Positions 28,690 to 34,716 of a DNA stretch of 36,399 bases are shown piece by piece. Within the stretch, counting starts at the first letter, position 1. Each line of letters begins with the position of its first letter. Source of the DNA: Bordetella parapertussis (GTDB lineage: Bacteria > Pseudomonadota > Gammaproteobacteria > Burkholderiales > Burkholderiaceae_C). The notes below the pieces were generated by a model. That model was given only the letters and a program-made list of their open reading frames with translations. It made no database searches and was not told where the DNA came from. The stretch lies in the NCBI GenBank assembly GCA_945870575.1, contig CAMBSK010000026.1:1-36399 (forward strand), written 5' to 3'. The translations under genes and the position numbers were made by a program.

Positions 28690-29211
28690 ATGGAATTAAG
28701 TCATGCTATTGATCTTCGCAATTCATTGCGGAAAAACAGAGTCATCATGGCTTACAACGGAACCGTGTCAGATGAGTTAATGTTGACACTGGCCGATATG
28801 CTCAAAACCAGATTGCTGGCCCATGACGATTCCAAGCGATCCAAGTTGATTTTCTCCGTGTTTATGGAAGGCGTACAAAACCTTATCTGGCACGGCAAGG
28901 AAAATGATGATGATCACGGCATGATTCTGATCACTGAAGTCGGTAATGAAATTACTATTTTGTGTGGAAACCGAATTTTGAAATCGGAAACGCACGATTT
29001 GAAGGAAAGGCTAGACCGGATCGCAGGTGCAGACAAGGAAACCATTCGTCAGATGTACCGGGACGGCATGGCGGAATCCGGTGAGCACGAAGGCCCGGGC
29101 GCGGGATTGGGCTTGCTTGAAATTGCCCGTCGCTCAACTCACCCTATTAATTATACTTTTGAGGATGTTGACGATCGCTCTGTTGACTTCATTCTGTCGG
29201 CCACAATTTAA
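28690..29211 (+). CDS. SiaB-family histidine-kinase-like (GHKL) protein kinase
   Basis: This 173-residue protein fits the SiaB family, single-domain GHKL kinases that phosphorylate SiaC in Pseudomonas aeruginosa. The N-box is FMEGVQNLIWHG with Glu60, Asn64 and His68. The ATP-lid/G-box is GPGAGLGLLEIARR (136-148), and an ILCGNRI strand lies between them. There is no sensor domain or membrane segment, so it is cytoplasmic. GGGAG six bases before the ATG at 28690 supports the start. It is followed after 12 bases by the SiaC-like gene. No PP2C phosphatase (SiaA) is visible in the window, so the counteracting enzyme, if any, is elsewhere. Confidence 0.85.
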   Translation: MELSHAIDLRNSLRKNRVIMAYNGTVSDELMLTLADMLKTRLLAHDDSKRSKLIFSVFMEGVQNLIWHGKENDDDHGMILITEVGNEITILCGNRILKSETHDLKERLDRIAGADKETIRQMYRDGMAESGEHEGPGAGLGLLEIARRSTHPINYTFEDVDDRSVDFILSATI

Positions 29212-29223
29212 AGGAAATTGAAA

Positions 29224-29601
29224 ATGAATTTGCATATTGCTGCCACAGACAGAACCCCAGAAATTTCTTTAACTTACCAGCCTTTAAAGTTGCTGATTCA
29301 AGGCGAATCATTTCCTGAGGACGTGTCCGCTTTTTACGGTCAAGTGATCAATGCCATCAATTCATTGCAGACCCAGGCTAAGGGTGAATTGCAGGTTGAA
29401 ATGGCAATGATTTATATAAATAGTTCCAGTATCAAAGCCATGTACCGGATTTTTGAAGGACTGGATGCCTATCGTAAGGCGGGCAATCAGGTGGAAGTGG
29501 TGTGGAAAGCCGAAGAAGATGACGACATCATGCAAGAATTAGGCGAAGACTTTAAAGACCGCTTTCAGGAATTAATTTTCTCCATCATCCAGCATGGCTG
29601 A
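29224..29601 (+). CDS. SiaC-family (DUF1987) partner-switch protein
   Basis: The 125-residue protein matches the SiaC/DUF1987 family, small proteins whose unphosphorylated form binds and activates the diguanylate cyclase SiaD in Pseudomonas. Family features visible are SLTYQPLKLLIQGESFPEDV near the N-terminus, the YINSSSIKAM segment and an acidic C-terminus. Ser68 in INSSS sits at the position recalled for Thr68 of P. aeruginosa SiaC, the residue phosphorylated by SiaB. The ATG at 29224 follows AAGGAA (29211-29216). Its stop overlaps the cyclase gene by eight bases, so the two are translationally coupled. It is likely the direct regulator of that cyclase; this is inferred. Confidence 0.85.
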   Translation: MNLHIAATDRTPEISLTYQPLKLLIQGESFPEDVSAFYGQVINAINSLQTQAKGELQVEMAMIYINSSSIKAMYRIFEGLDAYRKAGNQVEVVWKAEEDDDIMQELGEDFKDRFQELIFSIIQHG

Positions 29602-30682
29602 AGTTGTTTTTGATCTTTATGACCGGGAGAAATTGTTGCTTGCCGAAGGGCAGGCTATTCTTGACAACGGTGACAGCCTGGCAATACGTCAATTTGCCGA
29701 ACGATTGTTTGATCGTTTCAGCAAACTCGTTCGTGAAAACGAAGATTTGACCCGCCATTCCGACAGGCAGGAGCAACGTCTTGTCAAACTCAACAGAAAT
29801 CTAAAAACCCAAACCTTGGAACTTGAACAGCAACGCAGTCGTCTCGAAGGCTTGTCAAACCAGTTGGCTAAATACCTTCCGCCCCAAATTCACGATGCAT
29901 TGTTTGCAGGCAAGTACGATACGCAAATTACCACTCAACGAAAAAAACTTACTGTATTTTTCAGCGATATCAAAGACTTCACCCGGACGGCCGAATCTTT
30001 GCAACCCGAAGCTTTGACTGAGTATTTAAACGAGTATTTTTCCGAAATGACGCAGATTGCTTTGTCGTACGGGGCAACCATAGACAAATACATAGGCGAC
30101 GCGGTCATGCTGTTTTTCGGTGATCCTGAATCAAAAGGTGTTCGTGAAGATGCGCGTGCTTGCGTGTCCATGGCATTGGAGATGCAGGAGCAAATGCTGG
30201 TTTTACAAAGACGCTGGCTGGAAAGAGGTTTTGAAAATCCTTTTGTCATTCGCATCGGTATTAACACCGGCTATTGCAATGTAGGTAATTTCGGATCCGA
30301 ACAAAGACTGAGCTACACCATCATAGGTGGTGAAGTTAACGTGGCGCAACGACTTGAAGCCAGCAGTGACCCAGGAGGTATTTTGATCAGTTACGATACT
30401 TTTGTTCACGTGGATGATCTGGTTGAGGTGGAAGAGCGCCAGGCTGTCAATCTCAAAGGGATTGACAGAAGCATCAAAACTTATGCCGTTAAAGGTAGAA
30501 AATCTGAAGCCGATAAGCCGTTGCGACTCAGCCATGCGCAAGGCGTTTATATTGACTTGTCGCCCAAATCCTTGAGCAGCCAGGATTGCCTGTTGATTGC
30601 TGAGCAACTGAAATCATTGGCTAGACAACTCGAAGATTTACAAGCTGAGCAGTTGTCTCTTTCAAAGGAATTGATTGGATGA
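29594..30682 (+). CDS. Class III adenylate cyclase with N-terminal coiled coil
   Basis: This 362-residue soluble protein has an N-terminal helical region (1-90) rich in charged heptads, a short linker LAKYLPPQIHDALFAG, then a class III nucleotide cyclase domain (about 117-300). The metal aspartates are Asp125 (FFSDIKDFT) and Asp169 (YIGDAVMLFF). Lys165 (IDKYIGD) and Thr242 (SYTIIGG) are the adenine-selecting pair. Asn249 and Arg253 (NVAQRLEA) fit the transition-state residues. These predict cAMP as product. SiaD of Pseudomonas, a c-di-GMP synthase, holds the equivalent place after SiaC. A C-terminal helical tail (about 325-360) may serve dimerisation. The gene overlaps the SiaC gene by eight bases and the next gene by four (ATGA). 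Confidence 0.93.
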   Translation: MAEVVFDLYDREKLLLAEGQAILDNGDSLAIRQFAERLFDRFSKLVRENEDLTRHSDRQEQRLVKLNRNLKTQTLELEQQRSRLEGLSNQLAKYLPPQIHDALFAGKYDTQITTQRKKLTVFFSDIKDFTRTAESLQPEALTEYLNEYFSEMTQIALSYGATIDKYIGDAVMLFFGDPESKGVREDARACVSMALEMQEQMLVLQRRWLERGFENPFVIRIGINTGYCNVGNFGSEQRLSYTIIGGEVNVAQRLEASSDPGGILISYDTFVHVDDLVEVEERQAVNLKGIDRSIKTYAVKGRKSEADKPLRLSHAQGVYIDLSPKSLSSQDCLLIAEQLKSLARQLEDLQAEQLSLSKELIG

Positions 30683-31170
30683 GTGAAGTAGCTGCCAGTT
30701 TTGAAGTTGATATCGATCATCTACACTCGTTGGGCGTTAAAGATCCTTACTCCAGCGCCAGTTTACAGATTTACAAATCCGGTAAGCTCAATAGCAATCA
30801 GCGTTTGTATTTCAGCTTGTGGGGTTCGAAGTTGCTCAGTACCGTGAGCTTTGATGCCAAGAAAAAAATAATTACAGAAGGTGTTGAATTATCCGCCGCC
30901 TATTTCATCGTATCCGGCGACCTGATCGCTGTCAAAGGTGAGCGTCTAGAGCGCTACGGGCCGGGTAGTGTGATTGGATTAGCTGAAGGGTTGGCGGGCT
31001 TGCCTTACCCGAAAACCATTGTCAGCATCACGCCTGTTCAAGCGCGCATTATCCCGCTAACAAAGGTAGACCACATTATTCCGAAATTGCCTCAGGCCTT
31101 GCGCGATATTTTGCAAACGACCATCAAACGCACGCTTGGCCTTGCTGCCTCAAAGAAAGGCAAACCTTGA
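30679..31170 (+). CDS. Cyclic nucleotide-binding-like protein with degenerate binding cassette
   Basis: The 163-residue protein has a CNB/CRP-like beta-barrel segment (about 58-130: ITEGVELSAAYFIVSGDLIAVKG), but no DNA-binding domain or other effector domain. The phosphate-binding cassette reads GPGSVIGLAEGLAGLPYPKT. The usual FGE spacing is lost and the arginine that binds cyclic phosphate is Lys. Canonical cAMP binding is therefore doubtful. The start ATG at 30679 overlaps the cyclase stop (ATGA), and its stop overlaps the next start. It may be a structural or regulatory partner of the second CNB protein. Confidence 0.7.
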   Translation: MSEVAASFEVDIDHLHSLGVKDPYSSASLQIYKSGKLNSNQRLYFSLWGSKLLSTVSFDAKKKIITEGVELSAAYFIVSGDLIAVKGERLERYGPGSVIGLAEGLAGLPYPKTIVSITPVQARIIPLTKVDHIIPKLPQALRDILQTTIKRTLGLAASKKGKP

Positions 31171-31517
31171 GTGATTTTCAAGTCATTACATTCAAAGCAG
31201 GAGACAGAATATTCAACGCGGGTGATGCTGCAGACCGGCTTTTTTTCATCAAACAAGGCGTGGTTCAATTGCTTGGCGCTGACAACAATGTGATTGCCAG
31301 TATCGGTGAAGGCGAATCATTTGGAGAGCAGGCTTTTTTAACCGGAGGCATACGCGGGGCATCAGCGCAAGCGCAAGGTGAAGTCAGTTGCGTGGTTATC
31401 ACAACTAATGAGGCCAATGCCATTTTGGCCGGGGCTTCGCCTTTGCTGGTGCCAGTCTTCGAGGCCTTGTTATTGCAGCAAAACATGCATAACGCACTTC
31501 GTTCTCAACGTTCCTAG
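31167..31517 (+). CDS. Stand-alone cyclic nucleotide-binding domain protein (TTG start)
   Basis: This 116-residue protein is essentially one CNB domain: ITFKAGDRIFNAGDAADRLF, then FFIKQGVVQLL and GEGESFGEQAFLTGG, followed by IRGASA. Phe52-Gly53-Glu54 and Arg63 match the phosphate-binding cassette FGE-A-(x)n-R-x-A, so cAMP or cGMP binding is credible. There is no effector domain, so it probably acts through protein contacts. No ATG or GTG is in frame near the N-terminus. The TTG at 31167 overlaps the upstream TGA as TTGA and is taken as the start. It is a candidate cAMP receptor for the cyclase two genes upstream. Confidence 0.85.
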   Translation: MSDFQVITFKAGDRIFNAGDAADRLFFIKQGVVQLLGADNNVIASIGEGESFGEQAFLTGGIRGASAQAQGEVSCVVITTNEANAILAGASPLLVPVFEALLLQQNMHNALRSQRS

Positions 31518-31525
31518 GTTTAACC

Positions 31526-32362
31526 ATGTTAATACCCAACGTTACAGCAACAAGCAGGTCAGATACAGCAAGACTTTGGAGCAGCAGTCTGCAAAATTTA
31601 CGTTCCGCATGGCCACATCATTGGCCGGGATTGCCTGTGGTGGTGCGAGCCTGTCAGTTGCAAATCTGGGGAGATCAGCCGCCATCTGACGGAATTGCTG
31701 CTCACATGCTGCAGACTGCCTATGCTTTGGCCGCGCACATGGAATCTTTGTCGCAGTCTTTGTCGCAGGAACCGCATTACCACAACCGTTTGCATACGGC
31801 AGATGCGCTGGTCAGTCTTACAGTCATGCTGTGTCTATTGAAGCGTCAACATGAAGTTGTTCCAGATGAATGGGCTGCGGCTTTGTTACTCGCGGTGACT
31901 TCTCATGATGTATTGCATCCTGGCGGAGCCAATAGCTACTTACAGGAATTCGAACTTCAATCGGTCAAGGAATTGAAGCTCTGGCTTGAGCGTTATGAAA
32001 TCAATTCTCACTGGAGTCGATGTATTGAACAACTGATTTTGAACACCGATCCCAGCCTAGTGCAAACCAACCATGACAAAGTGATTGGTACTCAATTTAC
32101 TTTCAATATGGATTGGGCCACAGTACTTGTGAACGAGGCCGATATTCTTGCAAGCGCAAGTGCCGAATTTGGACAAGATCTTGGTAATCACTTGGCGCAA
32201 GAATGGCAATGGAAAGATCACCCTTTGCACACCATCGTGGGTACGGCTGGAGGAAGAGTGAATTTTTTGAAATCTCTTCGTTTTTCAAGTCCGGCAGCAC
32301 TGGCCTTGAATATGCCGTTGATCGTAGCCAAACAGGTACAAAATCTCACTGCCGGTATATGA
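31526..32362 (+). CDS. Class I (PDEase I-type) cyclic nucleotide phosphodiesterase-like protein
   Basis: The 278-residue protein carries the metal-site pattern of class I phosphodiesterases, a family best known from eukaryotes. YHNRLHTADAL gives His86 and His90, SHDVLHPGGANSYL gives His127, Asp128 and His131, and Asp206 is in NEADILASA. The segment IEQLILNTDPS resembles the VIDxVLATDMS helix after the metal site. The spacing of the first ligands matches PDE4 (36-37 residues between H and HD), but the later part is shorter and the YND-LENHH segment is missing. It should hydrolyse cAMP or cGMP made by the cyclase upstream; activity is inferred. It starts eight bases after the CNB gene and has no membrane or sensor domain. 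Confidence 0.82.
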   Translation: MLIPNVTATSRSDTARLWSSSLQNLRSAWPHHWPGLPVVVRACQLQIWGDQPPSDGIAAHMLQTAYALAAHMESLSQSLSQEPHYHNRLHTADALVSLTVMLCLLKRQHEVVPDEWAAALLLAVTSHDVLHPGGANSYLQEFELQSVKELKLWLERYEINSHWSRCIEQLILNTDPSLVQTNHDKVIGTQFTFNMDWATVLVNEADILASASAEFGQDLGNHLAQEWQWKDHPLHTIVGTAGGRVNFLKSLRFSSPAALALNMPLIVAKQVQNLTAGI

Positions 32363-32420
32363 AGTGAAACCAGACAGGGTTGGTGATATTCTGTGGTCTA
32401 TTTACTTGGTTACTCTCGAC

Positions 32421-33224
32421 ATGACACCTGAAAAACTACTGCAGCATATTGACACAGGCCGACTGTGGCCGCAAGACTTTACTCAAGGCATTCCTGCTGA
32501 TGTTTCTGCGGCTTACCAAACGGCTTTGCAGGTGCGCCGGCTGCGCGAGCAACGCGGTGAACTGCCGTGCGGTTACAAAATTGGCTTTACCAACCGCAGT
32601 ATTTGGGAGCGCTACCAGGTGTTCGAACCCATCTGGGGAACTGTCTGGGACAGCACCTTGACCTATGCTGATGAAAACGGGGAAGGGACTGTTGATATCA
32701 GTCGCATGAGTCAACCGCGCCTTGAGCCTGAACTGGTTTTTGGTATGCGCAGCACACCATCCTCTGATTTGAATCTTGAAACCCTGTTTGACGCTATCGA
32801 ATGGATGGCCTGCGGTTTTGAGATTGTTCAATCGCATGCCGAAGATTGGCGTTTCAAGCTTGCCGACACAGTGATTGACAGTGGTTTACATGCACATTTA
32901 CTGTTGGGCAAACCTTTTGCCTTAAAGAAATTTGCCGCCGATGGCCGCAGCTTGCATGAGCTGCTTGCAGGTATGACGTTGCAACTTGTGCATCAGAGTA
33001 AGGTTGTTGAAACAGGCTTTGCATCCAATGTGCTTGACAGTCCATTGATGGCCTTGCTTTATTTTTTAAAAGCTTTGCGACAATGCCCCGGTGCAACTGA
33101 TGTAAAAGCAGGTGATGTGATCACCACCGGTACGTGGACTGACGCGGCGCCTCTTAAGGCAGGGCAGCAATGGGAAAGCCGTTATCAGCAGCCGTTGAAT
33201 GGTTTGAAAATAAAACTGATATAG
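32421..33224 (+). CDS. MhpD/2-keto-4-pentenoate hydratase or 4-oxalocrotonate decarboxylase family protein
   Basis: The 267-residue protein belongs to the fumarylacetoacetate-hydrolase-fold hydratase/decarboxylase group. The metal ligands are Glu102 and Glu104 (LEPELVFG) and Glu134 (GFEIVQSH), with spacing close to MhpD. Lys53 is in GYKIGFTNR, and WRFKLADTVIDSG follows the third ligand. The reaction is addition of water to 2-hydroxypentadienoate-type acids, or decarboxylation of oxalocrotonate. The ATG at 32421 gives the usual family length; a GTG at 32364 would add 19 residues. No partner meta-cleavage genes are near. It lies 58 bases after the phosphodiesterase gene, and a link to that operon is unproven. 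Confidence 0.85.
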   Translation: MTPEKLLQHIDTGRLWPQDFTQGIPADVSAAYQTALQVRRLREQRGELPCGYKIGFTNRSIWERYQVFEPIWGTVWDSTLTYADENGEGTVDISRMSQPRLEPELVFGMRSTPSSDLNLETLFDAIEWMACGFEIVQSHAEDWRFKLADTVIDSGLHAHLLLGKPFALKKFAADGRSLHELLAGMTLQLVHQSKVVETGFASNVLDSPLMALLYFLKALRQCPGATDVKAGDVITTGTWTDAAPLKAGQQWESRYQQPLNGLKIKLI

Positions 33225-33234
33225 GACTTATCTC

Positions 33235-34716
33235 TTGCGAAAGATTATTTTTTCTTCAACTACAAGAGTGCTTTTTTTTCTAGCTCTTTTGATACCGTTT
33301 GTGGTGCAAGCTCAATCTGCAGTCTGCTGGGAATCAGCCGATTGCGGCTTAAACCATCAACCTGTGCAATTTAGCAGTTACAACATTGACAGCACATTGC
33401 TGCCATTGAATGTGAGCAAAACAACTTATTCAAAGTATTACACCCTTAATTTCCCTGGCTTGATCACAGCCATTCATGACAGATTGATGTTGTCTGATTC
33501 ATCTGGGAATATGAGTTTTATCAACGGAGATACATTCTTGGAAGCCGGTTTTCCTGCTATTACGAAAAAAAATGTAACGCTTAGAGATATTAAATACAAA
33601 GAAAAATTTGATTCCTTGTTTGCCTGCTTTCATTACCAGGATGACATTGATAATTCTCACCATACAGCGATTGGCCGATTACAGATAACTAAGAAAACCG
33701 CTGATAACACGTCGAGATGGATTGTTTTATACGATACCAATCATAAAGATATTCAACCTGATAACTGTGTTTTAGATGTGACTGATGCCAAGGTTTATTT
33801 CATCATTGGTAGTCTTAAAGAAGGTCAAGCAGAGCGTCCATATGCGCAAGACAAAGAAAACAGTTTGGGTAAGTCATTCGCACATGAACTTGGTACTGGA
33901 AAAACTAAATTGCTGGCAACCGGACACCGAATGTCTTTAAGTATTCTCAGCAGGAAAAACGGACAAGTTTGGTTCACTGAAAATGGAGAACGCGGCGGGG
34001 ATAAGTTATCTTTTCTGGAATCAGGCCAGAATTACGGCTGGCCTGTGAATATTTCTGGCACCAAATATTTCCGTTTTTCAAAATCAACTAAGCATCGCAA
34101 AGAGGAATCAAGTCCATTTACAGAAGCTGTGTACAGTTGGCTACCTTCTATTGCCCCAAGTTCTTTGATTGAATTGAATGATTTTCATCCTGAGTGGGAC
34201 GGTGATTTACTAATGGGCTCTCTCAAGGCTCAAAGTCTTTACCGGATTCGTCTGGTAAATAACCATATTCAGTCTATTGAACAAATACATATAGGGCAAC
34301 GTATCCGTGGCATGCAACAAATGGGTAAAACCATTTGGTTGACTACTGACGAAGGGGCGCTGGTCACCGTCAATGTGGATGAACGGCGTTTGAATTCAAA
34401 TACGGCTTTACCCGACATACCCGGCGGATCTTCGCTGGGTTTGTGTGTGAATTGCCATTCTTTTTCACACCCGGATGTGACTTCAGCTTTCGGCCCCCCT
34501 CTTTCCGGCATTTTCGGCAGAAACATCGCCATGCATAATTTTTCTTATTTTAGCGACAGTTTAAAGAAGAAAATTGGAATATGGGATGAGGCTTCTTTAA
34601 CCTCATTTTTATTGGATCCACAAGCGTTTGCACCTGGGACAACCATGAAGATTGGCGTTAAATTGTCAATAGAAGAAGTGAGTAAAATTGTAGGTGCGTT
34701 AAAGAATATGAAATAA
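33235..34716 (+). CDS. Secreted PQQ-type sugar dehydrogenase-like beta-propeller fused to a cytochrome c domain (TTG start)
   Basis: This 493-residue protein has a signal peptide (charged MRKIIFSSTTR, then a hydrophobic core, cleavage near VQA-QS). A soluble glucose/aldose dehydrogenase-type beta-propeller follows. Its family hallmark is QVWFTENGERGGDKLSFLES, then GQNYGWPVN. The C-terminal cytochrome c domain has heme site Cys404-x-x-Cys407-His408 and distal Met471 in GTTMKIG. The likely role is periplasmic oxidation with electron transfer through heme. The propeller is divergent (ENGE for the usual EHGP), so PQQ use is not assured. AGGAC (33223-33227) seven bases before the TTG at 33235 supports that start, and no ATG is suitable. 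Its DNA is AT-rich. Confidence 0.85.
   Translation: MRKIIFSSTTRVLFFLALLIPFVVQAQSAVCWESADCGLNHQPVQFSSYNIDSTLLPLNVSKTTYSKYYTLNFPGLITAIHDRLMLSDSSGNMSFINGDTFLEAGFPAITKKNVTLRDIKYKEKFDSLFACFHYQDDIDNSHHTAIGRLQITKKTADNTSRWIVLYDTNHKDIQPDNCVLDVTDAKVYFIIGSLKEGQAERPYAQDKENSLGKSFAHELGTGKTKLLATGHRMSLSILSRKNGQVWFTENGERGGDKLSFLESGQNYGWPVNISGTKYFRFSKSTKHRKEESSPFTEAVYSWLPSIAPSSLIELNDFHPEWDGDLLMGSLKAQSLYRIRLVNNHIQSIEQIHIGQRIRGMQQMGKTIWLTTDEGALVTVNVDERRLNSNTALPDIPGGSSLGLCVNCHSFSHPDVTSAFGPPLSGIFGRNIAMHNFSYFSDSLKKKIGIWDEASLTSFLLDPQAFAPGTTMKIGVKLSIEEVSKIVGALKNMK

Follow-up and report, generated by a model that had tools for sequence, protein, structure and literature searches.

Which enzyme does the switch protein SiaC control when the gene that follows it encodes an adenylyl cyclase? 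The question is raised by a stretch of 36,399 nucleotides (nt) labelled Bordetella parapertussis (contig CAMBSK010000026.1 of assembly GCA_945870575.1), referred to here at its full length as the window, in which genes for a SiaB-family kinase, a SiaC protein and a cyclase follow one another. In the SiaABCD system of Pseudomonas aeruginosa, SiaC acts on SiaD, a synthase of cyclic di-GMP (c-di-GMP), according to excerpts of PMC8457831 and PMC7647112. From the sequences alone, we consider it likely that a SiaA/B/C-type partner switch has changed its target from c-di-GMP to cyclic AMP (cAMP) by an exchange of catalytic heads behind a shared stalk. The new element is a putative SiaD-type, N-terminal SiaC-docking stalk upon the head of a class III adenylyl cyclase.

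Six genes make up the operon, in the order siaB-siaC-cyclase-CNB1-CNB2-PDE (CNB, cyclic-nucleotide-binding; PDE, phosphodiesterase), all on the + strand and overlapping or nearly so. A gap of 12 nt separates siaB from siaC; siaC (29224..29601) overlaps the cyclase (29594..30682) by 8 nt, the cyclase overlaps CNB1 by 4 nt, CNB1 overlaps CNB2 by 4 nt, and 8 nt lie between CNB2 and PDE. The initial annotation, made from the letters alone, had described six such co-directional genes, with SiaB and SiaC identities, a cyclase in the SiaD slot after an 8-base overlap, adenine-type Lys165 and Thr242, and a PDEase I-type enzyme last; the coordinates and the Pfam and NCBIfam assignments agree with this description.

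The cyclase is a protein of 362 amino acids (aa). Its head matches Guanylate_cyc (PF00211, 7e-28), and its best PDB match is CyaB (3r5g, 2.8e-64). Pfam finds no GGDEF domain, and the protein does not qualify as a SiaD diguanylate cyclase. All 23 SiaC-linked cyclases in the alignment have D125, K165, D169, T242, N249 and R253, which we take to be the full adenylyl-cyclase set of metal, base and transition-state residues. Having both the catalytic domain and the expected residues, the protein is classed by its sequence as a class III adenylyl cyclase, and cAMP is very probably its product. In three genomes (G002, G010, G011) no class III cyclase was found besides the SiaC-linked one. The AlphaFold2 model (mean predicted local distance difference test score, pLDDT, 79.7; predicted template modelling score, pTM, 0.54) places a single helix, residues 28-92 (29675..29869, + strand), before the catalytic domain. 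The cyclase is also matched by the stalk profile described below.

Alignment to the window protein starts at residue 1-6 for the SiaC-linked cyclases, truncated ones apart; at loci without siaC it begins at residue 28 or later, mostly at 49-83. Elsewhere, the gene after siaC usually encodes a GGDEF protein whose N-terminus resembles that of the window cyclase. A profile was built only from 19 SiaC-linked GGDEF stalks, chosen by an R-x-S/G-D-type motif. It matched all 36 class III cyclase open reading frames (ORFs) with siaC within 600 nt, with scores of 20.1 to 37.8 bits (35.4 for the window protein). Of 84 other cyclase ORFs, none exceeded 11 bits; these are imperfect negatives, which include ORFs cut by the locus end and SiaC-linked or possibly so (L032, L034, L099, L102, L105, L107) and count some genes repeatedly through overlapping loci. 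The window N-terminus scored 37.9 bits, against 10.9 for the best of 2000 shuffles (1993 scored). Among 6485 ORFs, six proteins reached E<0.01, each directly after siaC, five of them GGDEF proteins and one with no head assigned (L077); this listing omitted the training rows and the cyclase-tagged rows, and the GGDEF protein L085 was thereby hidden. The L077 protein (G230:C7) has its stalk-like N-terminus at 21.2 bits and its ORF is ended by the locus edge. In the same genome, a 337 aa protein after siaC (L089, G230:C1) carries a stalk-like N-terminus (RRLVRMSDRNEERL) and a SpoIIE head (Pfam 1.7e-19), and is absent from the profile matches.

Excerpts of the SiaC-SiaD crystal report (PMC8457831) place SiaC Y65, N67, T68 and S69 near SiaD S82, D83 and Q86, and E110 with R84; as we read the list, D114 lies with K77/R74, and R103 with D91 is a further listed contact. 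The SiaD contact equivalents fall in a putative SiaC-contact motif, VRENEDLTRHSDRQEQRLVKLN, at cyclase residues 46-67 (29729..29794, + strand). The contact alignment holds 63 rows, from 33 window-type and two second-type cyclases, 23 GGDEF proteins of group 1 and five SiaD-type GGDEF proteins. SiaC N67, S/T68, S69 and E/D110 are kept in 63/63 rows, as are stalk R80 (cyclase R54) and D83 (D57); window-type cyclases keep R84 (R58) in 33/33 and S82 (S56) in 31/33. SiaC position 114 is D/E in 23/23 rows of GGDEF group 1, E in 2/2 of the second cyclase type, and R in 33/33 of the window type (window R113). Its listed counterpart, stalk position 77, is R/H in 23/23, R in 2/2 and K/R in 5/5 SiaD-type rows, and D/N/Q in 33/33 rows of the window type (window D51). 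The charges are reversed on both partners, which fits direct docking of SiaC on the stalk. On balance we regard it as quite probable that SiaC docks on this cyclase and controls it.

A second co-directional module, siaB2-siaC2-cyclase2-SpoIIE, is seen at L193 (G007), L195 (G003) and L194 (G472). L088 and L150, which are the copies of this module in G007 and G472 and represent the second cyclase type, show GGDEF-like charges at this contact.

The kinase and the switch protein are readily recognized. SiaB (28690..29211, + strand, 173 aa) matches SiaB_fam_kinase (NF038262) at 5.1e-40 and 136.9 bits against a cut-off of 85, DUF6272 at 2.5e-31, and chain 6kko_A of the SiaB-SiaC PDB entry at 5.6e-13; it falls below the P. 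aeruginosa-type equivalog NF038264 (76.4 bits, 225 required). SiaC (+ strand, ATG start, 125 aa) matches PF09345 at 5.5e-34 and 116.9 bits and the SiaC structures 6kko_C / 7e6g at 1.2e-16, and is likewise below its equivalog, NF038265 (84.9 bits, 150 required). Around the acceptor site the alignment is ungapped, window YINSSSIKAM against P. aeruginosa YLNTSSIKAM. Ser67 in the N-S-S site (codon 29422..29424, + strand), the equivalent of Thr68, is the predicted phospho-acceptor, and Ser stands there in 33/33 SiaC proteins linked to window-type cyclases.

The initial annotation had named a gene order not conserved in relatives as grounds for abandoning the idea. A scan of genome contigs for the cyclase kept 76 loci; at 32 (L001-L031, L076) the gene immediately upstream is siaC. 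Among these, siaB precedes siaC in 30, the contigs of L004 and L029 beginning too late to tell, and the lowest cyclase identity to the window is 59% (L030). CNB1-CNB2 lies downstream of the cyclase in 16 loci (L001-L012, L014, L030, L031 and L034, which begins inside the cyclase) and divergently, upstream of siaB, in 10 (L016-L022, L024, L028, L076). PDE follows in 15 loci, some of them ended by a contig edge. As the order recurs in many relatives, the operon is more than chance and the idea survives this check. The relatives are labelled as Comamonadaceae, Limnohabitans, Oxalobacteraceae and other betaproteobacteria, and include pond and lake metagenome-assembled genomes (MAGs); some are presumably marine, going by isolate names. 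Loci L001 and L023, labelled Bordetella parapertussis, look like mislabelled environmental MAGs, to judge by isolate names and, for L001, by a genome of 1.8 Mb.

The usual partner of SiaC is nonetheless a GGDEF protein. With flanks of 1.5 kb, siaC was found in 10/369 genomes of a class sample (13 genes: 7 by GGDEF, 2 by a cyclase, 4 by others) and in 28/299 genomes of a family sample (32 genes, 30 with loci: 22 by GGDEF, 4 by a cyclase, 4 by neither). Because two loci occur in both samples, there are 41 distinct siaC loci, 29 with GGDEF, 4 with a class III cyclase and 8 with neither. A check proposed earlier, whether SiaC keeps company with class III cyclases more than with GGDEF proteins, thus came out negative in both samples; a GGDEF protein is the prevailing partner, and pairing with the cyclase is a lineage-specific trait. 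The window type forms a supported group of the SiaC tree (100/99, 23 rows), in which a joint clade of both siaC-cyclase types (the second being L088 and L150) is neither recovered nor rejected (p 0.26). A separate SiaC subgroup (L155-L158, 100/99) has siaB and SpoIIE as neighbours, and neither kind of cyclase lies within 1.5 kb of it. An N-S-A-S motif stands in 4/8 of the other SiaC rows, presumably those of L155-L158.

The genomes that pair siaC with a window-type cyclase are poor in GGDEF. There are no GGDEF matches in 8/12 of them and 1, 5, 3 and 1 in the remaining four, most of the twelve being MAGs for which completeness figures are absent. Limnohabitans sp. G3-2 (G007), a genome of 3.2 Mb that does not bear the MAG label, has zero. 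Eight other siaC genomes hold 22-50, and G230 holds 79. As to class III cyclases, the 'Hydrogenophilales' MAG AH-321-K14 (G006; L037, L040, L042, L047, L051) carries tandem arrays of them; its 1.7 Mb hold 35 PF00211 matches and G009 has 13, and in each of the two the CNB1-CNB2 pair makes up the sole two CNB matches found.

Downstream of the cyclase lie two CNB proteins, said initially to be an intact domain followed by a degenerate one; their order is the reverse. CNB1 (30679..31170, + strand, 163 aa) has the cyclic-nucleotide-binding fold (cNMP_binding, PF00027, 4.3e-7, 30.3 bits against a cut-off of 27.5). The phosphate-binding FGE...R motif is absent in 11/11 aligned sequences, and a conserved GSVxGLAEG-like stretch stands instead, with G94, G96, S97, V98, A102, E103 and G104 invariant. 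CNB2 (31167..31517, + strand, TTG start, 116 aa) is a stand-alone, intact domain (PF00027, 2.1e-17, 63.3 bits) with FGE(x8)R, of which F52, G53, E54 and R63 are invariant in 11 aligned. Neither has a further Pfam match, hence no helix-turn-helix, and neither classes as a CRP/FNR protein. The pair is adjacent in 12/12 siaC-cyclase genomes, distant from siaC in G003, G007 and G008. In two loci (L210, L211) a single chain joins the two, CNB2 preceding CNB1, which suggests a CNB1/CNB2 complex.

Unlinked CNB pairs lie mostly by methyl-accepting chemotaxis proteins (MCPs), cheA, cheB and fliD, flagellin-like or flgK genes; none of these neighbours is seen at the unlinked pair L205. An MCP is within 6.5 kb of 7/9 unlinked CNB1 loci, with P about 1e-11 under random placement. 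The test used 35/38 MCP places (three sub-cut-off pieces were dropped) and omitted the 3.8 kb contig of G472; because genome sizes were rounded, loci are partly related and some places were omitted, the P value is only indicative. No chemotaxis genes are among the 18 ORFs, a subset of those in the window, that were scanned with Pfam. Seven genomes (G003, G007, G008, G467, G503, G594, G663) have another class III cyclase within about 11 kb of CNB1, and six of the seven have PDE within about 11 kb of it, that of G467 being about 21 kb off. These places (G007:C20, G003:C49, G008:C19, G467:C10, G594:C2, G663:C1, G503:C19) are chemotaxis or flagellar regions, a second cAMP-chemotaxis arrangement.

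The last gene, PDE (31526..32362, + strand, 278 aa), encodes a predicted class I cyclic-nucleotide phosphodiesterase. It matches PF00233 (PDEase_I) at 1.2e-7 and 32.1 bits (cut-off 24.8), over profile columns 1-57 of 238 only, and was modelled for that reason. The AlphaFold2 model has a mean pLDDT of 83.4, and the 50 PDB matches listed by Foldseek are all class I phosphodiesterases, TcrPDEC1 and PDE10A being best (best E 4.8e-4, template modelling scores of 0.5-0.6, 14-19% identity). H86, H90, D93, H127, D128, H131, N136, D175 and D206 are invariant in 12 aligned, and putatively fit HD...H....N / D, which we take to be the class I metal site. For CNB1 and PDE, NCBIfam gives no match and Pfam supports both. 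Past the operon, a 2-oxopent-4-enoate hydratase-like protein (32364-33224) starts 1 nt beyond the PDE stop, or at an ATG at 32421, and its matches are under curated cut-offs. At 33235-34716, one protein joins a sugar dehydrogenase (GSDH) domain to a following cytochrome c-like domain.

Several results weigh against a re-targeted switch. Profile-profile comparison of the stalks gives P 2.1e-5 but a probability of only 77%, and the NCBIfam SiaD model reaches only E 0.024 for the cyclase. P. aeruginosa SiaD compared directly with the cyclase N-terminus is not significant (phmmer E 3.9, an alignment pairing LEKVARISDRYQ with NEDLTRHSDRQE), and direct similarity was rejected; stalk homology rests on intermediate profiles. 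The charge swap is a single inherited change in 33 related sequences, not 33 independent ones. SiaC position 114 is a gap in all five SiaD-type rows; stalk position 74 does not follow the swap, being acidic also in 20/23 rows of GGDEF group 1; and window-type pairs lack the R103-D91 contact, having I/V and mostly K at these positions. A PDE was detected in nine of the 12 siaC-cyclase genomes but not in G005, G006 or G009; it is present in 5/5 further CNB1 genomes and in 0/8 other siaC genomes. Four genomes with no siaC match (G467, G503, G594, G663) likewise carry CNB1 and PDE, so neither of these is a partner of this switch alone; that CNB1 is exclusive to siaC genomes was rejected, as 4/7 CNB1-positive genomes (of 299) lie outside the 28 siaC-positive ones. 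Lastly, the 36 kb window has no SpoIIE-profile match, the mark of a SiaA-type phosphatase. In many relatives a SpoIIE protein, in several cases one of about 730-770 aa, is encoded immediately upstream of siaB or downstream of the cyclase, with no such neighbour within the sequence available for L016-L022. Since SpoIIE matches are present in 12/12 genomes with a window-type siaC-cyclase, the SiaA of the window's own system is probably encoded elsewhere. The initial annotation's "self-contained" circuit cannot be kept, the window lacking this phosphatase and the CNB proteins an output domain.

Other explanations draw on the same observations. SiaB and SiaC may not regulate cyclase activity at all, SiaC being a scaffold or localiser (at the pole or a chemosensory array, for example) and the stalk serving assembly. 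The unlinked CNB pairs, mostly beside chemotaxis genes, favour this, as does HsbA-HsbD, whose switch protein also drives polar localisation (excerpts of PMC6482189); but the SiaD site to which the docking motif aligns is one that activates the enzyme when occupied (excerpts of PMC8457831), and in the model the stalk helix points to the catalytic domain. We hold the scaffold explanation to be unlikely. Convenient co-transcription, of a SiaBC pair having some other target with an independent cAMP cassette from a chemotaxis cluster, is distinctly less likely again. It gains from the siaC-less genomes in which CNB1 and PDE share a region with another class III cyclase, but the siaC-cyclase linkage persists where the CNB pair lies elsewhere (L013, L026, L027), and all SiaC-linked cyclase ORFs have the stalk, no other cyclase ORF scoring above 11 bits. 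The slimmest chance goes to cGMP or another cyclic nucleotide as the product, used by CNB2 and PDE: specificity is read from two residues, but these, the presumably adenine-type Lys165 and Thr242, are invariant in 23 sequences, and CyaB is the closest solved relative.

The re-targeted partner switch is the reading that we prefer. The earlier interpretation stands insofar as gene order, residues, the shared stalk and the two-sided charge swap point to SiaC acting on the cyclase, and falls on self-containment, partner frequency and CNB order. We infer the binding, the direction of control, the cAMP product and the motility output as follows. SiaB would phosphorylate SiaC on Ser67 and keep it off the cyclase, and upon some cue a SiaA-type PP2C phosphatase would dephosphorylate it. 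Free SiaC would then bind R54-x-S56-D57-R58 on the coiled-coil stalk and set the cyclase dimer active, as for SiaD; we lean towards such activation by unphosphorylated SiaC. The cAMP would bind CNB2, working in complex with the pseudo-receptor CNB1, and the two would perhaps act on chemotaxis or flagellar function, while the class I PDE would terminate the signal. A motility output through the CNB pair has about even chances.

If this is true, one phospho-switch has moved between second messengers by exchanging a catalytic head, and soluble bacterial adenylyl cyclases gain a defined protein regulator. The stalk motif and SiaC position 114 would provide a sequence rule for predicting SiaC targets. 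A two-protein CNB receptor without a DNA-binding domain, tied to chemotaxis loci, would make a non-CRP cAMP output testable in bacteria that can be cultured, Limnohabitans for example. It is an evenly balanced possibility that SiaC serves generally as the adaptor of a portable docking stalk with swapped enzymes (GGDEF, class III cyclase and, apparently, a PP2C phosphatase in one genome), and that in bacteria poor in c-di-GMP synthases it now runs a cAMP circuit steering motility through the CNB2 receptor and CNB1 pseudo-receptor.

How does the system compare with those already described? The listed hits, openings of abstracts and excerpts of the open-licence literature on SiaC, partner switching, class I PDEs and CNB-chemotaxis (excerpts of PMC8457831, PMC12834913, PMC7647112, PMC4976288, PMC6482189, PMC9239204, PMC10714779, PMC9228545) contain no link between SiaC and an adenylyl cyclase; those of PMC9239204 describe the merging of PP2C/STAS and c-di-GMP systems and name SiaABCD. 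HsbA-HsbD (P. aeruginosa) and BgrV-BgrR (Sinorhizobium meliloti), named in excerpts of PMC8457831, likewise set a partner-switch protein on a cyclic-nucleotide synthase, but use STAS proteins, diguanylate cyclases and c-di-GMP. CyaB has the closest solved catalytic domain, the 3r5g match covering that domain only. Unlike the window cyclase, CyaB is linked to a membrane domain and to the Chp system. TcrPDEC1 and PDE10A have the class I fold and metal-site residues in common with the window PDE, which is shorter and bacterial; the CRP/Vfr family shares the CNB domain, but CNB1 and CNB2 have no detected DNA-binding domain. SiaABCD itself is nearest, through its SiaB-family kinase, SiaC, the siaB-siaC-cyclase order, the R-x-S-D-R stalk motif and the SpoIIE phosphatase adjoining in many relatives. 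The window differs by its class III adenylyl cyclase head in place of GGDEF, Ser for Thr at the phospho-site, reversed charges at one SiaC-stalk contact, the addition of CNB1, CNB2 and PDE, and the absence of siaA. With neither a GGDEF domain nor SiaA in its operon, the system is not a member of SiaABCD, but by analogy it should work like one.

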